IMG/VR virus record: IMGVR_UViG_3300011115_000580
Span: 1 to 24,651 of that record
Length of the DNA: 24,651 nt
Source of the DNA: a virus
Reading direction: 5' to 3' (one strand)
Shown piece by piece: positions 4,053-16,825 of the stretch. Both the position numbers and the translations under genes were made by a program. The notes under the pieces are model-generated. The model was not told the DNA's origin. It searched no databases and saw only the letters and a program-made list of their open reading frames with translations. Each line of letters starts with the position of its first letter. Position 1 is the first letter of the stretch.

Positions 4053-4753
4053 TGAAAGCCTCTGCGGCAGCAATTGGATTAATCAAAAGCTGCGAAGGCT
4101 GTTCACTCACAAGCTATGTCTGCTCTGGCGGTGTTACGACCATAGGCTATGGTCATACGGGACCAAATGTATTCGCCAACCAAGTCATAACGCAGTCTGA
4201 TGCAGACACGCTCCTGCGTCTTGATGTCTCCCGATTTGAGGCAGTGGTAGACAAAATTTGTCCAGAGGCAACGCAGTGTCAGTTCGATGCCTGTGTCTCG
4301 CTGGCGTACAATATTGGCCCCCAAGCCTTCGCCAAATCTAGCGTAGTGCGTTTACACAATCTGAAGCGGTACGCGGAAGCGGCACAGGCGTTCATGCTCT
4401 GGAACAAGGCTGGCGGCAAAGTCTCTCGCGGGCTTCAGTCGCGCAGGGCCAAAGAGAGCGCGTTATACCTTGAGAGCGAAGTCAGGGCTGACGAGTATTA
4501 CCCGCCTTCGACGGCAGAGGGCGAAAAGCCCCTGGCCCAGTCCCGCACTCTGCAAAGCCAGATCGGCGCTGGGGTGATGACGGCGGCAACGGTTGCCAGC
4601 GCCGGGGTGATCGACAAAGAGACGGTTGGCTCAATGATCCAGTTTCTGCCTTACCTCAAAGACTTCTGGTGGCTGTTCGCCATTGCCGCCGTGGGCTACC
4701 TGGCCTGGGGCGCGTGGGCCAGAATCAGTGACCGCCGCGAAGGTAGGTCGTGA
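4052..4753 (+). CDS. Endolysin: GH24 (T4-type) lysozyme with a C-terminal membrane segment
   Basis: 233 residues. Residues 8-36 carry the GH24 signature, with a catalytic Glu15 in KSCEG and the TTIGYGHT block. Measured from Glu15, the T4-lysozyme Asp20 position is Cys24 and the Thr26 position is Thr30. This is therefore the Glu-Cys-Thr form of the triad, not Glu-Asp-Thr. QCQFDACVSLAYNIG and SRGLQSRRAKESALY match the C-terminal lobe. It would cleave the N-acetylmuramic acid to N-acetylglucosamine bond in peptidoglycan. After about residue 150 there is a linker, then a hydrophobic span, FWWLFAIAAVGYLAWGAW, and a basic tail. The enzyme may thus be held on the membrane, which is unusual next to a separate small membrane protein. 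There is no N-terminal signal-anchor. The stop overlaps the i-spanin GTG start (GTGA). Confidence 0.93.
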   Translation: MKASAAAIGLIKSCEGCSLTSYVCSGGVTTIGYGHTGPNVFANQVITQSDADTLLRLDVSRFEAVVDKICPEATQCQFDACVSLAYNIGPQAFAKSSVVRLHNLKRYAEAAQAFMLWNKAGGKVSRGLQSRRAKESALYLESEVRADEYYPPSTAEGEKPLAQSRTLQSQIGAGVMTAATVASAGVIDKETVGSMIQFLPYLKDFWWLFAIAAVGYLAWGAWARISDRREGRS

Positions 4754-5154
4754 TTGGCCTCATTAGCAGCTTCATTCCCTGGCGCTTGGTTGCGATTCTG
4801 GGCCTTGCTGCCGGCATAGCCCTAGCCGTTGGTTGGGTTAGCTCCCGGCTTCAGCTAATCGGGGCGCTGCGCGTACAGCTAGACGCGGCGACCACAACTG
4901 CCAACGCCAACGCCGCGCTGGCTAAACAGGCAGAGGCTGAAAATGAGCGAATTAAGGCGATATTGGAACAATCGGCTCTTGCCCAGGCTGGGATCAGGTC
5001 AACTGCCAGGAAGCGGCAACTGGCTATTGTGGCCTCCCCGGCGGTGGGTGAGCCTCCTCTTTCTGACGCTGGCAGGGCTTGGATTGACGGGCTGCCAGAC
5101 GCAGCCCCGGGTGATCGAGCGCCTGGTGCCGCTCCCAGCGCCAAGCGTCCCTAG
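4750..5154 (+). CDS. Rz: i-spanin (Rz-like inner-membrane spanin subunit)
   Basis: 134 residues starting at GTG 4750, which overlaps the lysozyme stop as GTGA. A single N-terminal hydrophobic span (about residues 10-30, VAILGLAAGIALAVGWV) is followed by an Ala/Gln/Glu-rich helical region likely to form a coiled coil, then a Pro/Ala-rich tail. This is the type II inner-membrane topology of Rz. With the lipoprotein encoded within and beyond its 3' part, it would bridge the periplasm and fuse the two membranes in the last step of Gram-negative lysis. Function is assigned mainly from topology and context, since spanins diverge strongly in sequence. Confidence 0.8.
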   Translation: MIGLISSFIPWRLVAILGLAAGIALAVGWVSSRLQLIGALRVQLDAATTTANANAALAKQAEAENERIKAILEQSALAQAGIRSTARKRQLAIVASPAVGEPPLSDAGRAWIDGLPDAAPGDRAPGAAPSAKRP

Positions 5155-5305
5155 CGCCCTCCTAATGCCCTGTCTTGGGCCGTCCAAGCCGGGGGGCGAG
5201 TGGACCCAGCGTACCCTGATCCTGATAGCCGACCAGCTACGCGAGGCGCTTGACCTTTGCAACGCGGATAAGGCTGCGATTCGGACTGTTTTGAAGCCGA
5301 AATAG
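4943..5305 (+). CDS. Rz1: o-spanin (Rz1-like outer-membrane lipoprotein), overlapping the i-spanin gene out of frame
   Basis: Its frame begins inside the i-spanin gene and extends 151 bases past it. The reading contains a basic stretch (PPRRW), a hydrophobic core and a clear lipobox, LAGLGLTGC, followed by a proline-rich segment (LVPLPAPSVPSALLMPC). This is a standard Rz1 design: signal peptidase II would cut before the Cys and the lipoprotein would sit in the outer membrane. ATG 4943 has an AGAGG about 8 bases upstream, but it puts 35 residues before the signal core. TTG 5027 or GTG 5048 would give a more normal lipoprotein signal peptide. The mature part is long for an Rz1 and ends in a helical region (ILIADQLREALDLCNADKAAI). 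Confidence 0.8.
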   Translation: MSELRRYWNNRLLPRLGSGQLPGSGNWLLWPPRRWVSLLFLTLAGLGLTGCQTQPRVIERLVPLPAPSVPSALLMPCLGPSKPGGEWTQRTLILIADQLREALDLCNADKAAIRTVLKPK

Positions 5306-5373: not shown

Positions 5374-5389
5374 AAAGGCTTCAGCCTTT
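5374..5389 (-). terminator. Short hairpin at the end of the leftward recombination operon
   Basis: AAAGGC (5374-5379) and GCCTTT (5384-5389) pair around a 4-base loop that contains part of the stop codon of the last leftward gene. Read leftward, the stem is followed by TTGT, so it is at best a weak Rho-independent terminator. It may act together with the inverted repeat beyond it. Confidence 0.4.
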
Positions 5390-5692
5390 GAGCAGCGCCA
5401 GCAAATCAGTCAGCTTTATGACGCAGCGCCATTCCTGCTGGCTCTGGCGAAAGGCGACCACCGGCACCTCCCAGTCCTCGACACAAGCCTCGATCTGCCT
5501 AACCCAAGCCATGATAGCCAGGGTTTCCCGGCGCTTAATCTCAAAGCGGTATTTGCCTAGCTGAAGATCGTCGCCGCCCTCGCGGGCCTGGCCCAGCTTG
5601 CGTTTGACATCAACGCCCAGGGCCTCGGATACCAGCGCGGCAAACTCTCGCTCCGCGCCGGCACCTTTGTTACGGCTCATGCGCCCGCCCAT
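5381..5692 (-). CDS. Small PD-(D/E)XK nuclease, Holliday-junction-resolvase-like
   Basis: 103 residues. Residues 6-18 (SRNKGAGAEREFA) give the conserved N-terminal Lys/Glu block (Glu14). EGGDDLQLG supplies the acidic pair Asp41/Asp42, and FEIKRRE the Glu51-x-Lys53 of a PD-(D/E)XK active site. Overall size and order match the small putative Holliday junction resolvases encoded by many phages. Its likely job is nicking or resolving branched DNA before packaging. It is the last gene of the leftward recombination operon. ATG 5692 starts 1 base after the preceding stop and has an AGGAG 7 bases upstream; an internal ATG at 5680 is less well supported. It could instead be a general nickase of the same fold. 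Confidence 0.7.
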   Translation of the reverse strand: MGGRMSRNKGAGAEREFAALVSEALGVDVKRKLGQAREGGDDLQLGKYRFEIKRRETLAIMAWVRQIEACVEDWEVPVVAFRQSQQEWRCVIKLTDLLALLKG

Positions 5693-6049
5693 TTATTTCT
5701 CCTGCGGCGAGGCTGCGCGGGGTGTACGACCCCAACGCGCTGGCTTCTTATCTGGGTTATGCGCGGCTATGTGACATGACCGGCATAGCCACTGTACCTC
5801 AAGCAGCTTGGTGTAGTCGTCGTGATGCCCGTCTAGCCGTTTAGGTTCTACATTGCAGACCTGACAGCGAGTTGGTTTAATGATTAAGCCGCGATTAATT
5901 GCGCTCTCCACAGCCTTGTGAGCAGCACGTTTCTCTTTGTTCTGCTGTACCCACTCAGCGGCTCGCACACTGCTCTTGGCTTTGTACTCAGGATTGGTGC
6001 GCTTGCGTTCTTGGTATTGTGCGTATGCTTCGTCACTTGTGGGTTTCAT
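5693..6049 (-). CDS. HNH-type zinc-binding endonuclease-like protein
   Basis: 118 residues from ATG 6049, which has GGAGGG immediately upstream; a GTG at 6061 in frame is less likely. The C-terminal half reads CQVCNVEPKRLDGHHDDYTKLLEVQWLCRSCHIAAH. This has two CxxC knuckles bracketing a His-His-Asp segment, the usual treble-clef HNH layout in small phage proteins. The N-terminal half is basic and helical, probably for DNA binding. It may cleave DNA during packaging or recombination, or be a free-standing homing nuclease. Its place inside an operon, with spacing kept to a few bases, argues more for a working operon member. The end encodes RAASPQEK, and that DNA is shared with another gene at 13033-13051. 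Confidence 0.75.
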   Translation of the reverse strand: MKPTSDEAYAQYQERKRTNPEYKAKSSVRAAEWVQQNKEKRAAHKAVESAINRGLIIKPTRCQVCNVEPKRLDGHHDDYTKLLEVQWLCRSCHIAAHNPDKKPARWGRTPRAASPQEK

Positions 6050-6060
6050 CTCACCCTCCA

Positions 6061-7209
6061 CTAAAACGGAATGTCATCGTCCCAAGGATCACCTGGGATA
6101 CGCTTTGCAGGGTCGTAAGGCACAAACGGTGCGTAGGCCATTGCACTTAAGTCCTTCGCGTTCCTGCGCTTGCGTACTGGCGTGACCTTCTCGATCCTCG
6201 CGCCGGGAAACGCGGCCTTGATCTCTGCGATCTGCGGCGACTCAATAACATCCTGCGGTGCTATCTCTAGCTCACGGCTGGTCAGGTAAGCCTGACCGTT
6301 CCTAAAGGTCTTGCCACCAGGCATCTCGTACTCGACCCAGCCCTCGCCGGCATCTATGGCAGCGCCTGTAGGCACCAGCGGCGGGATGAATAGGTGCTGC
6401 TCACACGCCCGCTCTTGCTGGCCCTTGGTGAGCTTCCTGCTCTCGATGCTAACATTGCAATGCCAAGTGCCGTCTGCGCCGGGGGTGCTGTGACTGCAAG
6501 TGCGGCAGTTTACTGTAGCCACCTTCTTCTGGTGGCAGTGGGCGTTGAAGTCGCAGAACTTGCAGCCAAAGTATGCCGGGTCTTCACTCAGCTTTGCCGG
6601 CGGCTGCGCTGCGCTGATGATACTTGCAGCGCGACCTAGCAGGACGCTGGACGCGCTCTCGTTGTGATGGACCCACTCTGTGTAAACGTGGTCTGTGTCT
6701 TTATTCACCGCAAAATACAGAGCGCGTTCTAGCTTTAGAAGACGCATATAGATTTGCATCTGCGCGTAGTGCTTGGGCTTGCTGTCTGCAACGCCCTTGG
6801 CCTTAACATCTGCCCATGACTTTGCGTTATGGGTCTTGATCTCGACAACAGCCCAAGTCTTTGGTGCCTCGGGCAGACCTTGGGCGATGGCATCAACGCT
6901 GCCGCCAAAGTGGCCTGTCTTGTCCCGGCATTTGATCTGCTGCCCGTCCTGGTGGGTATGCAGTTCAACGCCTATGCCGCGAAGCTCCTCGAACACGCGG
7001 GCCTCCTCGCGGGTGCCGGTGTCAAACAGCCGTAGGATGCGCCCCTCAAACTGAGGGAGCGCGACCCAGCGGAAGGTCTGCCAGAGATAGCGATCACACT
7101 CAGAGCCAATAATGCTGGCTCCCAGGTGTTTGCGATGAGACTGTGGCTTTGCTGCGTACCACTTGTATATCTCCGCCGTGGTGGAGTTTTGGCGCTCTGG
7201 CAGGTTCAT
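6061..7209 (-). CDS. Cas4/RecB-like PD-(D/E)XK exonuclease with Fe-S type Cys cluster and an SSB-like C-terminal tail
   Basis: 382 residues. The nuclease core has GGSVDAIAQG (Asp106), VVEIKTH (Glu123-x-Lys125) and a QMQIYM motif near 150, as in RecB-family nucleases. Cys38 in GSECDRYLWQ and a Cx2Cx5C set (Cys216, 219, 225) give the four cysteines of a Cas4/AddB-type iron-sulphur cluster. A second Cys group follows (235, 238, 251, 269), probably a zinc knuckle. It likely resects DNA ends to make single strands for the neighbouring Sak4-like ATPase. The last residues are DPWDDDIPF. The final six are identical to the end of E. coli SSB (DDDIPF), the peptide that docks many host repair proteins. 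Four bases separate its start from the upstream gene's stop region. Confidence 0.85.
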   Translation of the reverse strand: MNLPERQNSTTAEIYKWYAAKPQSHRKHLGASIIGSECDRYLWQTFRWVALPQFEGRILRLFDTGTREEARVFEELRGIGVELHTHQDGQQIKCRDKTGHFGGSVDAIAQGLPEAPKTWAVVEIKTHNAKSWADVKAKGVADSKPKHYAQMQIYMRLLKLERALYFAVNKDTDHVYTEWVHHNESASSVLLGRAASIISAAQPPAKLSEDPAYFGCKFCDFNAHCHQKKVATVNCRTCSHSTPGADGTWHCNVSIESRKLTKGQQERACEQHLFIPPLVPTGAAIDAGEGWVEYEMPGGKTFRNGQAYLTSRELEIAPQDVIESPQIAEIKAAFPGARIEKVTPVRKRRNAKDLSAMAYAPFVPYDPAKRIPGDPWDDDIPF

Positions 7210-7212
7210 GGC

Positions 7213-7674
7213 CTACCGCTCCCAGGGTTTCTTGGCTGCGACGGAAGGCGCTGGTTTAGATGACTTACCGCCGCCGATCTTAGTGTAGCTTTCGATGCGG
7301 TTTCTCGTCTCGTCCTTGCGATCAATGTCTACGCTGACCAAGACCGGGATGTCGTGTAGCTGCTCTGTCTGCTGCATCTTATGCGTCAGACCAACGGCAG
7401 CGCACAGGCGATCAAGCTGCTCCTTAGCAATCTCCTCGGCTTTCTTCGAGGGATTGCTGACGTTCAGCCTGTCCCACAAGCGCCTCCCAGCGGCAGGACC
7501 GTCAACGACCTGGAAAGTGACTTCAAGGTATTCGCCGGTTCCAGCTTTTGTTTCTTTGATCTTCGTGTCGATCACGATGCACTCGTAATCTCCGCGAGGA
7601 AGCGGCTCAAACTTGCTGGTCTGGTTAGGATCACGTTCCTTGGCTTCGCCAATCTCATAATCAAATTGCGGCAT
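7213..7674 (-). CDS. DUF669-like putative ssDNA-binding protein
   Basis: 153 residues from ATG 7674 (MPQFDYEIGEAKERD). The pattern is typical of the DUF669 family that accompanies phage Sak4-type ATPases: PLPRGDYECIVIDTKIKETKAGTGEYLEVTFQV, then GRRLWDRLNVSNPSKKAEEIAKEQLDRLCAAVG, then DIPVLVSVDIDRKD. The beta-rich core suits an OB-type fold binding single-stranded DNA. Known SSBs usually end in an acidic tail, but this one ends KKPWER. The acidic tail is found instead on the nuclease encoded just downstream. It is in the leftward recombination operon with 4-base gaps to both neighbours. SSB activity is inferred from family context. Confidence 0.7.
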   Translation of the reverse strand: MPQFDYEIGEAKERDPNQTSKFEPLPRGDYECIVIDTKIKETKAGTGEYLEVTFQVVDGPAAGRRLWDRLNVSNPSKKAEEIAKEQLDRLCAAVGLTHKMQQTEQLHDIPVLVSVDIDRKDETRNRIESYTKIGGGKSSKPAPSVAAKKPWER

Positions 7675-7678
7675 CGTT

Positions 7679-8419
7679 TTATTCCTTCTTGGGTTTGATG
7701 GCTTCGGCAAACGCAGCCCAATCAAGCGGGATGCTTTCGGGTAGCGAGTAGCGGTTCTTTGCCATATACGCGGGGCGCTCACTGGTGAACAACATGCGTT
7801 CACCGCTACTTACACCGCGAGATACAGTCTTGTTAAAACCAACGTCTGACTGCTTCACGATGGTCTTATAATTCGCAAACAACACGGCATCCGCCCACTC
7901 GCGGATTAGGCTTCCGCTGCGCTCCTGTAGCTTGGGCTGATACCTATCGTAAGGCTCAGTCTCTGGGCTATCGAAACGCTTTATCATTGTGTGCGCGATT
8001 AAGATCACGTTCATGCCATGCTTGGTTCTCAAGGCATCAAACGCGGTGACGATGGTGCGCCACTTGTCGGCGGCGATAGATGCGCCCTTGCCGTATGCCA
8101 AATCCTTGGCATCATGCTTGGCTTCCATCTCCTGCCAGATCATAGCCTCCAGCCAATCAAGGCTGTCTAACACGACTGTCTTGTAGTCGTGCTTCTCCTC
8201 GTAGAGCGTAGTGATTGCAGACATGACACTGGCAACAGTCTTTGCCAGCGGGAAATGCTGCACTGGCAACGATCCCAGGCCGTCTTCTGTCAGGATGAAG
8301 ATGGGCTTGGGTGAGTATGCCGCCATAGTGCTCTTCCCTATGCCCTCTACCCCATACAACATTACGCGGGGCGCAAGCGCAGCATCGTTTCTACTAATAG
8401 ATTTAAGATCAAACGCCAT
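7679..8419 (-). CDS. Sak4-like AAA/RecA-fold ATPase (putative single-strand annealing protein)
   Basis: 246 residues from ATG 8419, chosen for its GAGG-type ribosome site. Walker A is GVEGIGKST (23-31) and Walker B TVVLDS (81-86). A further strand, MNVILIAHTMIKRF, ends in a polar sensor-like segment. Length and order match phage Sak4 proteins, which use a RecA-like core to anneal or pair DNA and usually work with an SSB. Here the DUF669-like protein is directly downstream and a resecting nuclease follows. The gene overlaps the preceding one by 11 bases. DnaB/RepA-like helicase loaders share the fold, so annealing activity is probable, not proven. Confidence 0.8.
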   Translation of the reverse strand: MAFDLKSISRNDAALAPRVMLYGVEGIGKSTMAAYSPKPIFILTEDGLGSLPVQHFPLAKTVASVMSAITTLYEEKHDYKTVVLDSLDWLEAMIWQEMEAKHDAKDLAYGKGASIAADKWRTIVTAFDALRTKHGMNVILIAHTMIKRFDSPETEPYDRYQPKLQERSGSLIREWADAVLFANYKTIVKQSDVGFNKTVSRGVSSGERMLFTSERPAYMAKNRYSLPESIPLDWAAFAEAIKPKKE

Positions 8420-8798
8420 CTTCCACCTCAATCTGGACATATACTTTTGCGGGTTTTACAGTGATAGCTGTTGCGATGTGACGCCACAGGTCAGGTCGTT
8501 CTAATCTAATCTGACGCAGCACAGGCTCGTCCTGCTCGATCTTGATCTTGATCGGGCGCATAGGCTCGGGCCATGACATCGTCAAAGCCTGTAGTGCTGC
8601 CACATCTGACTTATACGATAGCTTGCCAGTCGTGCTGATGCGCGTTGAGTTGGAAATGGGCGTGGTGGTCTTGCCCTCTTCTTTAGCCGGGAGGAGTTTA
8701 AGTATCTCCACCTCTGTCTCTATTCTCCTGGCGTTCGCCGCCGTCTCATCTGCCTTGGCTTGCAGCCAGGTGGCAGCTAGTTCTTGGATTGTTAGCAT
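8409..8798 (-). CDS. Unknown conserved phage protein, first gene of the recombination operon
   Basis: 129 residues from ATG 8798 (MLTIQELAATWLQAKADETAANARRIETEVEILKLL). The N-terminus is a helical, Ala/Glu-rich segment. It is followed by a Thr-rich beta-like stretch (TTTPISNSTRISTTGKLSYKSDVAALQAL) and a C-terminal part ending VYVQIEVEDGV. Proteins of this plan recur beside Sak4 and DUF669 genes in phages, but I know of no demonstrated function. The upstream in-frame extension to 8972 is rejected because it runs through the divergent regulatory region and the start of the repressor gene. It overlaps the Sak4-like gene by 11 bases, so expression is probably coupled. Confidence 0.65.
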   Translation of the reverse strand: MLTIQELAATWLQAKADETAANARRIETEVEILKLLPAKEEGKTTTPISNSTRISTTGKLSYKSDVAALQALTMSWPEPMRPIKIKIEQDEPVLRQIRLERPDLWRHIATAITVKPAKVYVQIEVEDGV

Positions 8799-8854
8799 CG
8801 TTTGACCTTTCGTGGTTTGAAAGCGTGTGCTTGTAAAGGGCTGTATAGTTTTTT

Positions 8855-9197: not shown

Positions 9198-11132
9198 GTG
9201 GAGAATAGCGAATTTCTCAGCTTGCTTGCGGGCAAGCTAGACGGTGAGCAGTATTGCTGGGTGTGCAGCTACGCTGGTGATCCTAACAGTCCTGCGGCTG
9301 CATGGGACGGCAGGGCGTATCATGGCAAGCCAGCACAAGCGCAGACGATTGACCGCTGCCGCGACCAGAACACCTATGTCTCAACTGCCGTCCTATCAGG
9401 GCTAGACGATCAGGCGCGGTTTCGGCGTAGCAAGCTGACATTCTTGCGGCTGGCGGTGCTGGTCGCTGACGATTGCAATCCTGATGATCTCGTTGGGCGC
9501 GTCAGTTATGTGATCGAGACCAGTCCCGGCAAGCGGCAGATCGGCGTCTGGCTGGATGCCGACGATCCAGACTGTGTAAACGGTGCGCTGATCGACGCGG
9601 TTATGGGCGATATGTCGGCGGCTGGCTTCATGGCTAAAGCTGACATCAGCGGCAACAACCGAGTGCGCTATGTGCGTCTGCCGGTGGGTAGCAACCTAAA
9701 GCCTCGCAATAGCGGGCCTTGGGCGGTGCGTCTGGAGCAGAGCAACCCAGAGGCGCGGTATAGCCTTGCTGACGCCTGTGCCGTGTTTGGCATCGACCTA
9801 GAGCGGGTTCGCGCTGGCATGTCTGCGCCAAAGGTCAGGCAGCACAACGAGAGCGGTTCCGACCATGCAAGCCTTATCGCGCTGCTGACGGCTGATGATG
9901 TGGATGATCGGTCTTACCATGACCCGCTGCTGAAGCTGACAGGCAAGCTGGTCGCGGGCGGGCTGCATCCCGGCGCGGTAGTCGAGCATGTGCGTGGCAT
10001 AATGATGGCCCATAGGCCAGATACCGAAGCTGAGTTAGCGCGGTGGCGGTCTAGGTATGACGAGATACCCCGCATGGTTGCGGGCGCGGAGCGTCACAAG
10101 CAGCGCGTTGATGCTGCGGCAGAGGATGTGATCCCCTCCTCTACTCCTGCGACGGCAGGGCTGCTTCTGACGCTCACCCAGTTAGAGGAGGCTGCGAAGT
10201 CGGTGCGCTGGTGCGTCAAGGCGCTGATCCCGGCTGATAGCATGGGCATCCTGTTTGGGGCCAGTGGCACGTTCAAGAGCTTTTTGGCGCTCGATCTGTG
10301 TTTGCACTTGGCGCACGACATGGCGTGGTGTGGGCGCAAGACCAATGCCGGCGGCGTGGTCTATGTCGCGGCGGAGGGCGGTGCTGGTATCTCGCGGCGT
10401 GTCAGTGCTTGGCATAAACAAAACAAGCGGATGTTGGCGACGAACTTTGCGGTGTGCGTCACGCCACTGCTGCTGACTGTCGAGGAGCGGATCGTTGCGC
10501 TGCGCGATGCTATCAGTGCGCTGACCTTCAAGCCTAGCCTGATCGTGGTGGATACCTTGTCGCAGACGTTTGCCGGGGACGAGAACAGCGCCAGCGACAT
10601 TAGCGACTATCTGCGGCTTATCAATTTGCATCTGCGCTCTGCGTTTGGGGCGAGTGTGCTGGTGATCCATCACACGGGACACTCTGCCTCTGAGCGGCCT
10701 CGCGGCTCATCTGCCCTGACTGCTAACGTGGACTATCTGCTGGGCGTGTATCGTCCTGACGCGGAGGGCATGTCGGCGCAGTTGGAAGTGCTGAAACAAA
10801 AGGACGGCGACAAGCTGCTGGCGCAACACTTCGACCTGACCAAGATCGTGCTGGGACGCGACGAGGACGGCGACGAGGTGAGTAGTCTGGTCGCGGGGTG
10901 GTACGATAGCGTGAAGGTCATTAAGGACGCGGTGGGCAAGCTGTCGGTCTATGAGCAGATGGTGATCGACGCGCTGGCTGACGGCTTGGTGCTGCAAGAG
11001 GACGAACTGCGGGCGCTGTTTACTGAGGGCAGCGTAGGCACCCAGCGGCAAGCATGGCGCAGGACGATGGACAAGCTGCAACAGCGCCGGCTGATTAAAG
11101 CGGCGGGGATCAAGGAGTGGAGGAAGGTATGA
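9198..11132 (+). CDS. Primase-helicase: RepB-like primase domain fused to a RepA/DnaB-type ATPase
   Basis: 644 residues from GTG 9198, with AGGGG 6 bases upstream. The N-terminal 180 residues (LAVLVADD near 85-92, SYVIETSPGKRQIGVWLD, SGNNRVRYVRLPVGSN) match primase domains of the RepB/archaeo-eukaryotic type. The middle part carries Walker A GASGTFKS (354-361) and Walker B SLIVVDTLS (447-455), then ASVLVIHHTGHS and a GSSALTANVDYLL segment, as in RepA-like hexameric helicases. The C-terminal 70 residues look like a winged helix (QMVIDALADGLVLQEDELRALF ... QQRRLIKAAG). It would unwind DNA and lay primers at the phage fork. No DNA polymerase gene is in the window, so host polymerase or an outside gene is needed. 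The stop overlaps the next start as ATGA. Confidence 0.85.
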   Translation: MENSEFLSLLAGKLDGEQYCWVCSYAGDPNSPAAAWDGRAYHGKPAQAQTIDRCRDQNTYVSTAVLSGLDDQARFRRSKLTFLRLAVLVADDCNPDDLVGRVSYVIETSPGKRQIGVWLDADDPDCVNGALIDAVMGDMSAAGFMAKADISGNNRVRYVRLPVGSNLKPRNSGPWAVRLEQSNPEARYSLADACAVFGIDLERVRAGMSAPKVRQHNESGSDHASLIALLTADDVDDRSYHDPLLKLTGKLVAGGLHPGAVVEHVRGIMMAHRPDTEAELARWRSRYDEIPRMVAGAERHKQRVDAAAEDVIPSSTPATAGLLLTLTQLEEAAKSVRWCVKALIPADSMGILFGASGTFKSFLALDLCLHLAHDMAWCGRKTNAGGVVYVAAEGGAGISRRVSAWHKQNKRMLATNFAVCVTPLLLTVEERIVALRDAISALTFKPSLIVVDTLSQTFAGDENSASDISDYLRLINLHLRSAFGASVLVIHHTGHSASERPRGSSALTANVDYLLGVYRPDAEGMSAQLEVLKQKDGDKLLAQHFDLTKIVLGRDEDGDEVSSLVAGWYDSVKVIKDAVGKLSVYEQMVIDALADGLVLQEDELRALFTEGSVGTQRQAWRRTMDKLQQRRLIKAAGIKEWRKV

Positions 11133-14322: not shown

Positions 14323-14402
14323 GGCGTGGCGACCCAGAGCGCGAAGAACAAGAACGCCAGGGCTATGGCTGCGATGGCGGTGGTGATGTACTGGCGGATC
14401 AT
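14319..14402 (-). CDS. 27-residue single-span membrane microprotein
   Basis: A tiny frame, MIRQYITTAIAAIALAFLFF then ALWVATP, fills the only apparent gap between two leftward genes. Its ATG (14402 to 14400) overlaps the preceding stop and its TGA (14321 to 14319) overlaps the next ATG, so both ends show ATGA coupling. The product is one hydrophobic helix with a short basic N-terminus. Coupling at both ends is strong positional support. Function unknown; membrane insertion or toxicity is possible. Confidence 0.55.
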   Translation of the reverse strand: MIRQYITTAIAAIALAFLFFALWVATP

Positions 14403-15142
14403 TTCGCGTCCTCCAGCAACTGCACTAATTTGTTAGCCATGCGTTGATAAGCCGCCGCATCAGCCTTACCAGCCGCCGCATAGGCCGCATCAGCCGCATA
14501 AGCCGCACCAGCCGCATCATCCGCCGCATGAGCCGCCGCATAAGCCGCATCAGCCGCCGCATAAGCCGCAGAAGCCGCCGCATAAGCCGCCGCATAAGCC
14601 GCCGCACCAGCCGCACCAGCCGCATAAGCCGCCGCATAAGCCGCCGCACCAGCCGCACCAGCCGCATAAGCCGCATAAGCCGCATCAGCCGCCACACGAC
14701 CAACCGACTCACCGCGCATCAGCGGCAGCAGTACGTCAGCGCATTGTTTTATTGCTGCCGTCACTGCCGCATCGTTTACACGCGGCAAGCCATCGGTCAG
14801 TAGCCAGTGCAGCCAGTGCCAACCGACACGCGACAAATCCGCGCCGGGTGTAATCGCTGCACTAAAGCGCATAGGCCAGCGCATCGCGTCGGTGTTCGGC
14901 AAGCCTTCAAAAATTGTATCTTCCAACCGCGCCAGCATTTGCGGGATGCCGAGGCGCGTTTCGTATTCTGCGTGATCGTCAGCGTTGCTCGTTGCACCCA
15001 AGCTTTGCAGCGTACAGCCGACAGCGCAGCCTTTTCCGTTTTCCCAGTATTGGCCTTTGACCAGCCGATCGGCGTCGGCGTGGGCTTGTAGATCAGCCAG
15101 CAGCTTCGATTTAATCGCGGGGTCATTGTGATAGGCGCTCAT
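14399..15142 (-). CDS. Conserved phage protein with an Ala/Tyr repeat tail
   Basis: 247 residues. The first 145 form an apparent globular domain: YHNDPAIKSKLLADLQAHADADRLVKG, GCAVGCTLQ, ETRLGIPQMLARLEDTIFEGLPN, then SRVGWHWLHWLLTD. This layout recurs in phages. Residues about 155-230 are repeats of AAYAA, AAGAA and AAADAA, encoded by GCN-rich DNA with an exact 42-base tandem duplication. The end (YQRMANKLVQLLEDAK) is helical. The repeats may form a long alanine helix or a repeat solenoid. AAGGA lies 11 bases before ATG 15142. Function unknown; repeat number is likely to vary between relatives. Confidence 0.65.
   Translation of the reverse strand: MSAYHNDPAIKSKLLADLQAHADADRLVKGQYWENGKGCAVGCTLQSLGATSNADDHAEYETRLGIPQMLARLEDTIFEGLPNTDAMRWPMRFSAAITPGADLSRVGWHWLHWLLTDGLPRVNDAAVTAAIKQCADVLLPLMRGESVGRVAADAAYAAYAAGAAGAAAYAAAYAAGAAGAAAYAAAYAAASAAYAAADAAYAAAHAADDAAGAAYAADAAYAAAGKADAAAYQRMANKLVQLLEDAK
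14581..14664. repeat. Exact 42-bp tandem duplication inside the Ala/Tyr repeat gene
   Basis: Bases 14581-14622 and 14623-14664 are identical. They encode two copies of a 14-residue Ala/Gly/Tyr unit on the minus strand. The surrounding 14450-14700 is built from shorter GCCGCA, GCATAAGCC and GCACCAGCC units. The length is a multiple of three, so the frame is kept. Confidence 0.85.
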
Positions 15143-16258: not shown

Positions 16259-16825
16259 TTACGCGGCGTTAATGCTTCCGCCGCAATGGCAGGTGGGGAG
16301 ACCGGCATCGACATTTTTTTGAGCTGTGCGGCATGACCAGCCGCAATCATCGCAGGTAAGCTTAATCATGCGGGTGCCCTGTTTCTTGCGACCAGACAGC
16401 GCCGTGTTCAAGGCCGCGTGGGGGTATTCGCCGAGGCTATCGGCAAGGGCTTGCAGGTCTTTGATAAGGGCCGGGCCAGGGACCGTGGCGGTCATCTTGC
16501 CGGTGAGGCCGAGGGAAAGGGCAACGCGTTTAAACGCGCCCTTGTGACCGCATTCCAGGCCGACGGCGGCGTGGATCAATTCGTGGAGCAGGATGGCGAG
16601 AACGTCGACGGCGTTTGATTGGCTGGGGCAGATAAATATTTCGGTGGTGTTGTCGGCGCTGGCGAGGTTTGACCAGCATTCGCCGATCCGCTTAAACTTG
16701 CCGCCTTTGCCGCCGGCAGGGATACCGACCGAGGCGCGAACGGCGGGAAGTGGGAAGCCCCGCGCGATGAAGAGAGGCGCGAAACGCTCGACGGCGGATT
16801 GAAGGTATGTTTCACGGGTTTGCAT
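16259..16825 (-). CDS. SprT-like zinc metallopeptidase
   Basis: 188 residues. HELIHAAVG (81-89) is the HExxH motif, with Glu82 as catalytic base and His81/His85 as zinc ligands. The following ECGHKGAFKR (91-100) gives His94 as the probable third ligand, as in SprT/Spartan proteins. The C-terminus carries a zinc ribbon (Cys158, 161, 165, 179, 181; CDDCGWSC ... TCHCGG). Cellular SprT/Spartan proteins cut DNA-bound proteins; a role against DNA-protein crosslinks or host DNA-bound proteins is therefore inferred. AAGGA lies 8 bases before ATG 16825, with a clear promoter upstream. It lies next to the proposed origin region. Confidence 0.85.
   Translation of the reverse strand: MQTRETYLQSAVERFAPLFIARGFPLPAVRASVGIPAGGKGGKFKRIGECWSNLASADNTTEIFICPSQSNAVDVLAILLHELIHAAVGLECGHKGAFKRVALSLGLTGKMTATVPGPALIKDLQALADSLGEYPHAALNTALSGRKKQGTRMIKLTCDDCGWSCRTAQKNVDAGLPTCHCGGSINAA

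Follow-up and report, generated by a model that had tools for sequence, protein, structure and literature searches.

Docking tails of the SSB type are normally studied on the single-strand DNA-binding protein (SSB) itself, and host proteins that interact with SSB include RecQ, RadD, PriA, RecO and ExoI. The closest described phage system is that of HK620. When its DUF669 SSB is deprived of the C-terminal hexapeptide NDYPPF, the annealase Sak4 no longer binds SSB-coated single-stranded DNA (ssDNA), and recombineering drops tenfold in E. coli, a host with a DDDIPF-ending SSB (PMC5928155, Hutinet et al. 2018). A typical pocket for the C-terminal SSB peptide (SSB-Ct) anchors the terminal carboxyl group by a basic lip (PMC10164576), so that a peptide ending in IPF plus one residue should not fit easily. 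Beyond PMC5928155, a literature search with subscription journals largely outside its range found nothing on SSB-type tails on phage nucleases or on carrier switching. Here we describe such a tail on a nuclease of a viral DNA (IMG/VR record IMGVR_UViG_3300011115_000580), the whole 24,651-nucleotide stretch of which is referred to as the window.

A preliminary description of this DNA proposed a Cas4-like nuclease ending in DPWDDDIPF; translation of 6061-7209 on the minus strand confirms the ending, and profile, fold and catalytic residues confirm the family. Residues 5-280 match phrog_1990 (Cas4-domain exonuclease, E=1.3e-96), and since the match stops at residue 280 the profile of the family does not cover the tail. 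The AlphaFold2 model (pLDDT 88.9, residues 10-340 well folded) finds SSO0001 Cas4 (E=6.1e-8), LHK-Exo and lambda exonuclease as its top Foldseek matches, and a RecB-type catalytic set (H100, D106, E123-x-K125, Q150xxxY154) is kept in 55/55 relatives. Equally invariant are C38, C216, C219 and C225, one N-terminal and three C-terminal cysteines that may hold a 4Fe-4S cluster. The window protein is a Cas4/lambda-Exo-fold nuclease with predicted exonuclease activity. No SSB domain appears among its Pfam matches, the tail-bearing protein thus showing no SSB OB domain, and its profile gave one chance-level match to PDB sequences (E=0.84).

The chain ends ...KRIPGDPWDDDIPF, with tip codons GAC GAT GAC ATT CCG TTT TAG. 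Values of pLDDT between 50 and 68 for residues 341-382 in the AlphaFold2 model predict a disordered arm of about 40 residues, and lend no support to the tail being part of the folded core. Among the 497 closed frames of at least 30 aa in the window, no other than the nuclease has an acidic-hydrophobic PF end, and the background rate of such tips is 2/9,604 ORFs. Relatives were gathered from viral contigs and bacterial genomes via conserved core motifs, not via the tail, and in a tree built on residues 10-285, with the tail left out, all tipped nucleases fall into one clade (SH-aLRT 98). Thirty of the 40 tree rows in this clade have (D/N)DxIPF or a very similar sequence at the C-terminus, five have one extra residue after IPF and five have lost the tip. 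This split is the fair measure of conservation, the 42 distinct tipped sequences having been chosen for possession of the tip; in these P at -2, I or L at -3, and D or N at -6 are found in 42/42, F at -1 in 41 (with one W), D at -5 in 35, and a hydrophobic residue at -7 in 79%. Position -4 is variable, with Pro the commonest residue (18/42) and Glu also frequent in the clade. The tip codons of the same sequences vary synonymously (four Pro, both Phe and three Ile codons are used), and entropy at linker positions -40 to -10 is 2.8 bits on average; L037 and the L012 group have a shorter arm but retain the tip. A degenerate DNA pattern for the tip matched 13/20 viral records of the clade (15-40 kb), once each and always at the nuclease end, its coordinates being assigned to nuclease ends by hand from locus ranges, and the reversed pattern matched 0/20 of the same records.

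These data support the view that the nuclease carries an SSB-type C-terminal motif under selection, with docking as its putative role. A chance C-terminus is rejected on clade conservation together with the background rate, and constraint from an overlapping downstream gene is likewise rejected, in that the downstream sequence varies among relatives and the tip codons change synonymously. Comparison of homologous C-termini, which the preliminary description had called for, gave a divided answer: close homologues keep the tip, which is missing from remoter ones at about 50% identity or less, so the tip is a clade-specific feature. Eight nucleases that have lost the IPF tip (L106, L111, L120, L128, L131, L134, L139, L147) share the end DDLDS(V/I)NW(S/T)GE..KK. 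The near-identical nucleases of L156 and L158 differ by one residue after IPF (IPFE vs IPF), and this pair constitutes a natural test of the importance of the terminal carboxylate.

The DUF669 protein encoded immediately upstream had been taken for the SSB of the module, an assignment upheld by its Pfam match and OB-fold model (pLDDT 84.6; Foldseek match to the DNA-binding protein PrgE with E=1.6e-5, and weakly to PriB and SSB); the matching phrog_6015 is annotated as 'single strand DNA binding protein'. The further claim that this SSB is missing the tip stands insofar as it ends in KKPWER, with neither a DDDIPF-type nor an HK620-like tip, but the protein is not tail-less: the OB-fold model and a PW tip of its own rule that out. 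The Trp is the sole invariant column among 32 DUF669 sequences, and [PA]W lies within the last ten residues of 82/85 DUF669 proteins. With a DUF669 neighbour that has its own OB-fold model, a role of the nuclease as ssDNA coat in place of SSB is unsupported. In the DUF669 SSBs of Cas4-exonuclease modules the conserved Pro-Trp tip sits behind an Ala/Pro-rich flexible linker. The DUF669 of L060 has both motifs in succession, ARPWGQRQQPAGQHLDDDIPF.

The module (Table 1) has the gene order DUF7173/phrog_2480, Sak4, DUF669, nuclease, HNH endonuclease, RusA-like resolvase. The HNH gene may be a mobile insertion, since the sequence right after the nuclease stop varies among close relatives. Elsewhere in the window, a lysozyme-like gene is followed by two ORFs, 4750-5154 and 4943-5305, that overlap in different frames and look like a nested Rz/Rz1 spanin pair, the C-terminal half of the protein of 14399-15142 contains long repeats rich in Ala, Tyr and Gly (AAYAAAYAAGAAG...), and 16259-16825 encodes a SprT-like metalloprotease-type protein (phrog_6361, with a weak Pfam match).

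Table 1. Coordinates of features in the window and the data that identify them
Feature	Position	Strand	Basis
RusA-like / PDDEXK_15 Holliday-junction resolvase	5381..5692	-	phrog_244 1.6e-17
HNH-type endonuclease, 118 aa, between nuclease and resolvase	5693..6049	-	phrog_2340 endonuclease 3.7e-20
Cas4-domain/RecB-family exonuclease with C-terminal SSB-type tail, 382 aa	6061..7209	-	phrog_1990, AlphaFold2, Foldseek
SSB-Ct-like tip DPWDDDIPF, nuclease residues 374-382 (DDDIPF = 6064-6081)	6064..6090	-	Translation, clade conservation
Variable arm from core to tip, nuclease residues 341-373, predicted disordered	6091..6189	-	pLDDT, high entropy
Zinc-ribbon-like Cys/His set of nuclease (C235, C238, C251, C269, H272)	6394..6507	-	55/55 conserved
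DUF669 single-strand DNA-binding protein, OB-fold model, 153 aa	7213..7674	-	Pfam DUF669 E=1.7e-19; phrog_6015 1.9e-31
DUF669 C-terminal tip KKPWER, Trp invariant	7216..7233	-	32/32 Trp
Sak4-like single-strand annealing protein (AAA_24), 246 aa	7679..8419	-	Pfam AAA_24 6.9e-50; phrog_124 Sak4-like 1.8e-45
phrog_2480 / DUF7173-like protein upstream of Sak4	8409..8810	-	Pfam, PHROG profile matches
Divergent AAA_25 RepA/primase-helicase-like replication protein	9198..11132	+	Pfam AAA_25 8.7e-33

The tailed clade also differs in its neighbourhood. A ResIII/RadD-like helicase follows the nuclease in 43/51 untailed loci and was found in none of 17 non-redundant loci of the tailed clade, nor in any of ten records of 35-40 kb, and a RusA-like resolvase lies downstream of the nuclease in all 17 of these loci and in none of the 51 untailed ones. 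As far as their sequence extends, the three sisters L017, L018 and L163 show no tail and no helicase. Since absence of the helicase and gain of the tail fall in the same region of the tree, their association rests on essentially one event, and is a lead, not a statistical result.

Tip carriers were counted across modules with Sak4, DUF669 and a Cas4 exonuclease. For sets a and c below, a simple regular expression was applied to records that are fragments: a terminal PF or PW counts as a tip if any of the four preceding residues is D or E, and the near-variants PY, SF, GIPF and IPF+1 score as none. Among 64 non-redundant metagenomic, prophage and phage modules (set a), 39 have one carrier, 25 none and 0 two, the carriers being DUF6511 (13), the nuclease (12), Cys-rich proteins (9), the helicase (3) and DUF669 (2). 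Of 22 cultured or otherwise annotated phages (set b), for most of which the module region rather than the whole genome was read, 18 show one tip, two a weak one (PB15 GVPF, K251 LYIPF) and two none (H40/1, W9). Here the tip is carried by the helicase in Mcat17, 16-3, TIVP-H6, CRP-902, SE1, K4PH164 and MMDA13, and further carriers are the sliding clamp, in RcTitan and DLP_2, and small ORFs that follow the helicase. Another 43 viral modules (set c) gave 24 with one tip, 18 with none (several of them near-variants) and one with two, its second tip lying on an unassigned ORF 5.7 kb away. Over about 129 modules, an upper figure because the sets overlap (four phages of set b also occur in set a, and L367 of set c is phage 16-3), there is usually one tip, roughly a third have none and one has two. 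A strict rule of one tip per module is thereby weakened, the modules with none including that of a complete phage, Pseudoalteromonas H40/1. Tips at or near DDDIPF are those of the nuclease, of the helicases of SE1, TIVP-H6 and MMDA13 and of the DUF669 of L060. The two clamps, L260 8003-9229 of Rhodobacter phage RcTitan and L262 8345-9487 of Stenotrophomonas phage DLP_2, end in DDEIPF and EDDIPF, respectively. In the small Cys-rich proteins the spacing between the last Cys and the tip is nearly constant; these tips and some of those on DUF6511 may belong to the fold, and the Cys-rich tips are therefore not taken as certain docking tails.

Where a Cas4 exonuclease is present, the SSB almost always ends in PW and another module protein has the tip. 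Where none was seen, as in five Sak4 phages of which three were read over about 9 kb, the SSB mostly holds it (HK620 NDYPPF, Vibrio 2.095 DDAPF, phiPSA1 WDDIPFD, Lactobacillus phiAT3 SDDDLPF; Vibrio H2 ends in NFDF). Beside Sak4, HK620 also encodes a second small protein, HkaM (L247 5754-5942), that ends in SELPF and is an exception to one tip per module. No such tip was found in lambda and P22, two genomes that are both without Sak4. Sak4 itself is present in every one of the 116 loci in which the sequence extends 3.5 kb or more upstream of the nuclease, no Sak4-less locus having been found among them. It is an evenly balanced proposition that modules with Sak4 and a Cas4 exonuclease as a rule have at most one SSB-type docking peptide, a portable element that moved to, or arose independently on, the SSB, helicase, small ORFs, DUF6511, clamp and nuclease, and whose carrier sets the step at which an SSB-tail reader, be it Sak4 or host repair proteins, enters. 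Carrier gains are few and phylogenetically nested, which places mutual exclusion of carriers beyond statistical proof.

From a conserved SSB-type tail on the nuclease we infer all further steps of the mechanism, and that the tail has a docking function of some kind is probable. The nuclease would be the resecting exonuclease of a single-strand-annealing module with the Sak4 annealase and the DUF669 SSB, and its tail peptide RIPGDPWDDDIPF would act as a relocated SSB-type docking plug on a flexible arm of some 40 residues. While exposing single strands it would hold a partner that reads SSB tails and hand this partner to the new ssDNA; if the partner were, as seems likeliest, the phage's own Sak4, resection would be directly coupled to annealase loading. 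Lambda Exo-Redbeta coupling and the loading of Sak4 by the HK620 SSB tail are the models for such a nuclease-Sak4 coupling. We name Sak4 as main partner of the relocated tail tentatively, with somewhat less than even confidence, favoured by its constant presence, the HK620 precedent and tolerance of an extra residue. The extra residue after IPF occurs in two unrelated carriers, the nuclease subclade (five relatives) and the phiPSA1 SSB, the natural forms being IPFD and IPFE, which argues against a pocket needing a free carboxylate. That the clade is without a helicase that often carries the tip elsewhere was counted in favour of a relocated tail on the nuclease. However, the Sak4 proteins of the window and HK620 are only remote relatives, so that the HK620 precedent may not transfer, and the sliding clamp and some other carriers are not obvious Sak4 loaders. 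Sak4 modules without any detected tip (25/64 in set a, and H40/1) also count against Sak4 as reader; in the nuclease subclade that lost its tip no other tip was found in Sak4-module records of up to 36 kb.

Alternatively, the tail may be read by host RecQ, RadD, PriA, RecO, ExoI and others, a possible explanation ranked a little below Sak4. It would then bring to the resecting nuclease a protein such as a host helicase, as a substitute for the phage one absent from the clade, or compete with host SSB for those proteins. In 12 bacterial genomes that carry related prophages, most host SSBs have (F/M/L)DDDIPF or DDEIPF as their end, close to the nuclease tip including its hydrophobic -7, and judged by sequence this match to the host dialect would suit host readers at least as well as Sak4. 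DDDIPF-like tips moreover recur on unrelated carriers, a Lactobacillus phage having DDDLPF, and the helicase distribution points the same way. Nevertheless, the extra residue of the subclade and the preference for Pro at -4 depart from the host dialect, known SSB-Ct pockets anchor the terminal carboxyl group (PMC10164576), and the helicase link is essentially that of a single event. The SSBs compared are those of related-prophage hosts, and for the one host-assigned tailed locus (L162) the host SSB was not found in its MAG. A reader within the module, either the DUF669 OB domain or the DNA-binding face of the nuclease itself, is unlikely; the acidic tail would in that case regulate access to DNA or tie the nuclease to ssDNA coated with phage SSB. 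DUF669, with its OB-fold model, is indeed present at almost every locus read, E. coli SSB shows weak binding of its tail to its own DNA site (PMC5928155), and in T7 gp2.5 an acidic tail and ssDNA compete for one surface, according to work cited in PMC5686142, but simple charge competition has no need of a near-invariant terminal P and F. A tail with no docking function, whether an inherited ornament or a chance C-terminus, is very improbable: losses and the tolerated extra residue show it to be dispensable in some lineages, and tips of small Cys-rich proteins may be fold parts, yet conservation has been long, through synonymous codon change and linker turnover, and such tips are rare in the background.

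Should phages indeed place the plug on a nuclease, helicase or clamp, the role of SSB as a hub would be separable from ssDNA coating, and what the tail does in phage recombination could be tested directly, by swapping the carrier and keeping the peptide. The question bears on how Sak4, a RecA-like annealase, is loaded where the phage SSB has no HK620-type tail, and the tip would offer a sequence handle for docking proteins among unannotated phage genes.

Compared with known systems, the window nuclease resembles Cas4/SSO0001 and the phrog_1990 exonucleases in its PD-(D/E)XK core, QxxxY motif and four cysteines for an Fe-S cluster, and exceeds them by the Cys/His ribbon, a small beta region and the tail. 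Lambda Exo-Redbeta (6m9k, a Foldseek match) offers a nuclease of related fold that pairs with an annealase, although the lambda genome, unlike the window nuclease, showed no SSB-type tail. HK620 shares the partners Sak4 and DUF669 and an SSB-type tip, with docking there established by experiment (PMC5928155), but its NDYPPF is borne by the SSB rather than by the nuclease, the proteins are remote homologues, and its module has the RecBCD hijacker Abc2, no Cas4 exonuclease being seen. Bacterial SSB-Ct (DDDIPF) equals the nuclease tip in the last six residues, and shares with it the hydrophobic -7, a variable disordered linker and conservation confined to the tip; the clade differs in having a nuclease and not an OB-fold SSB as carrier, often Pro or Glu at -4, and, in one subclade, one residue more.
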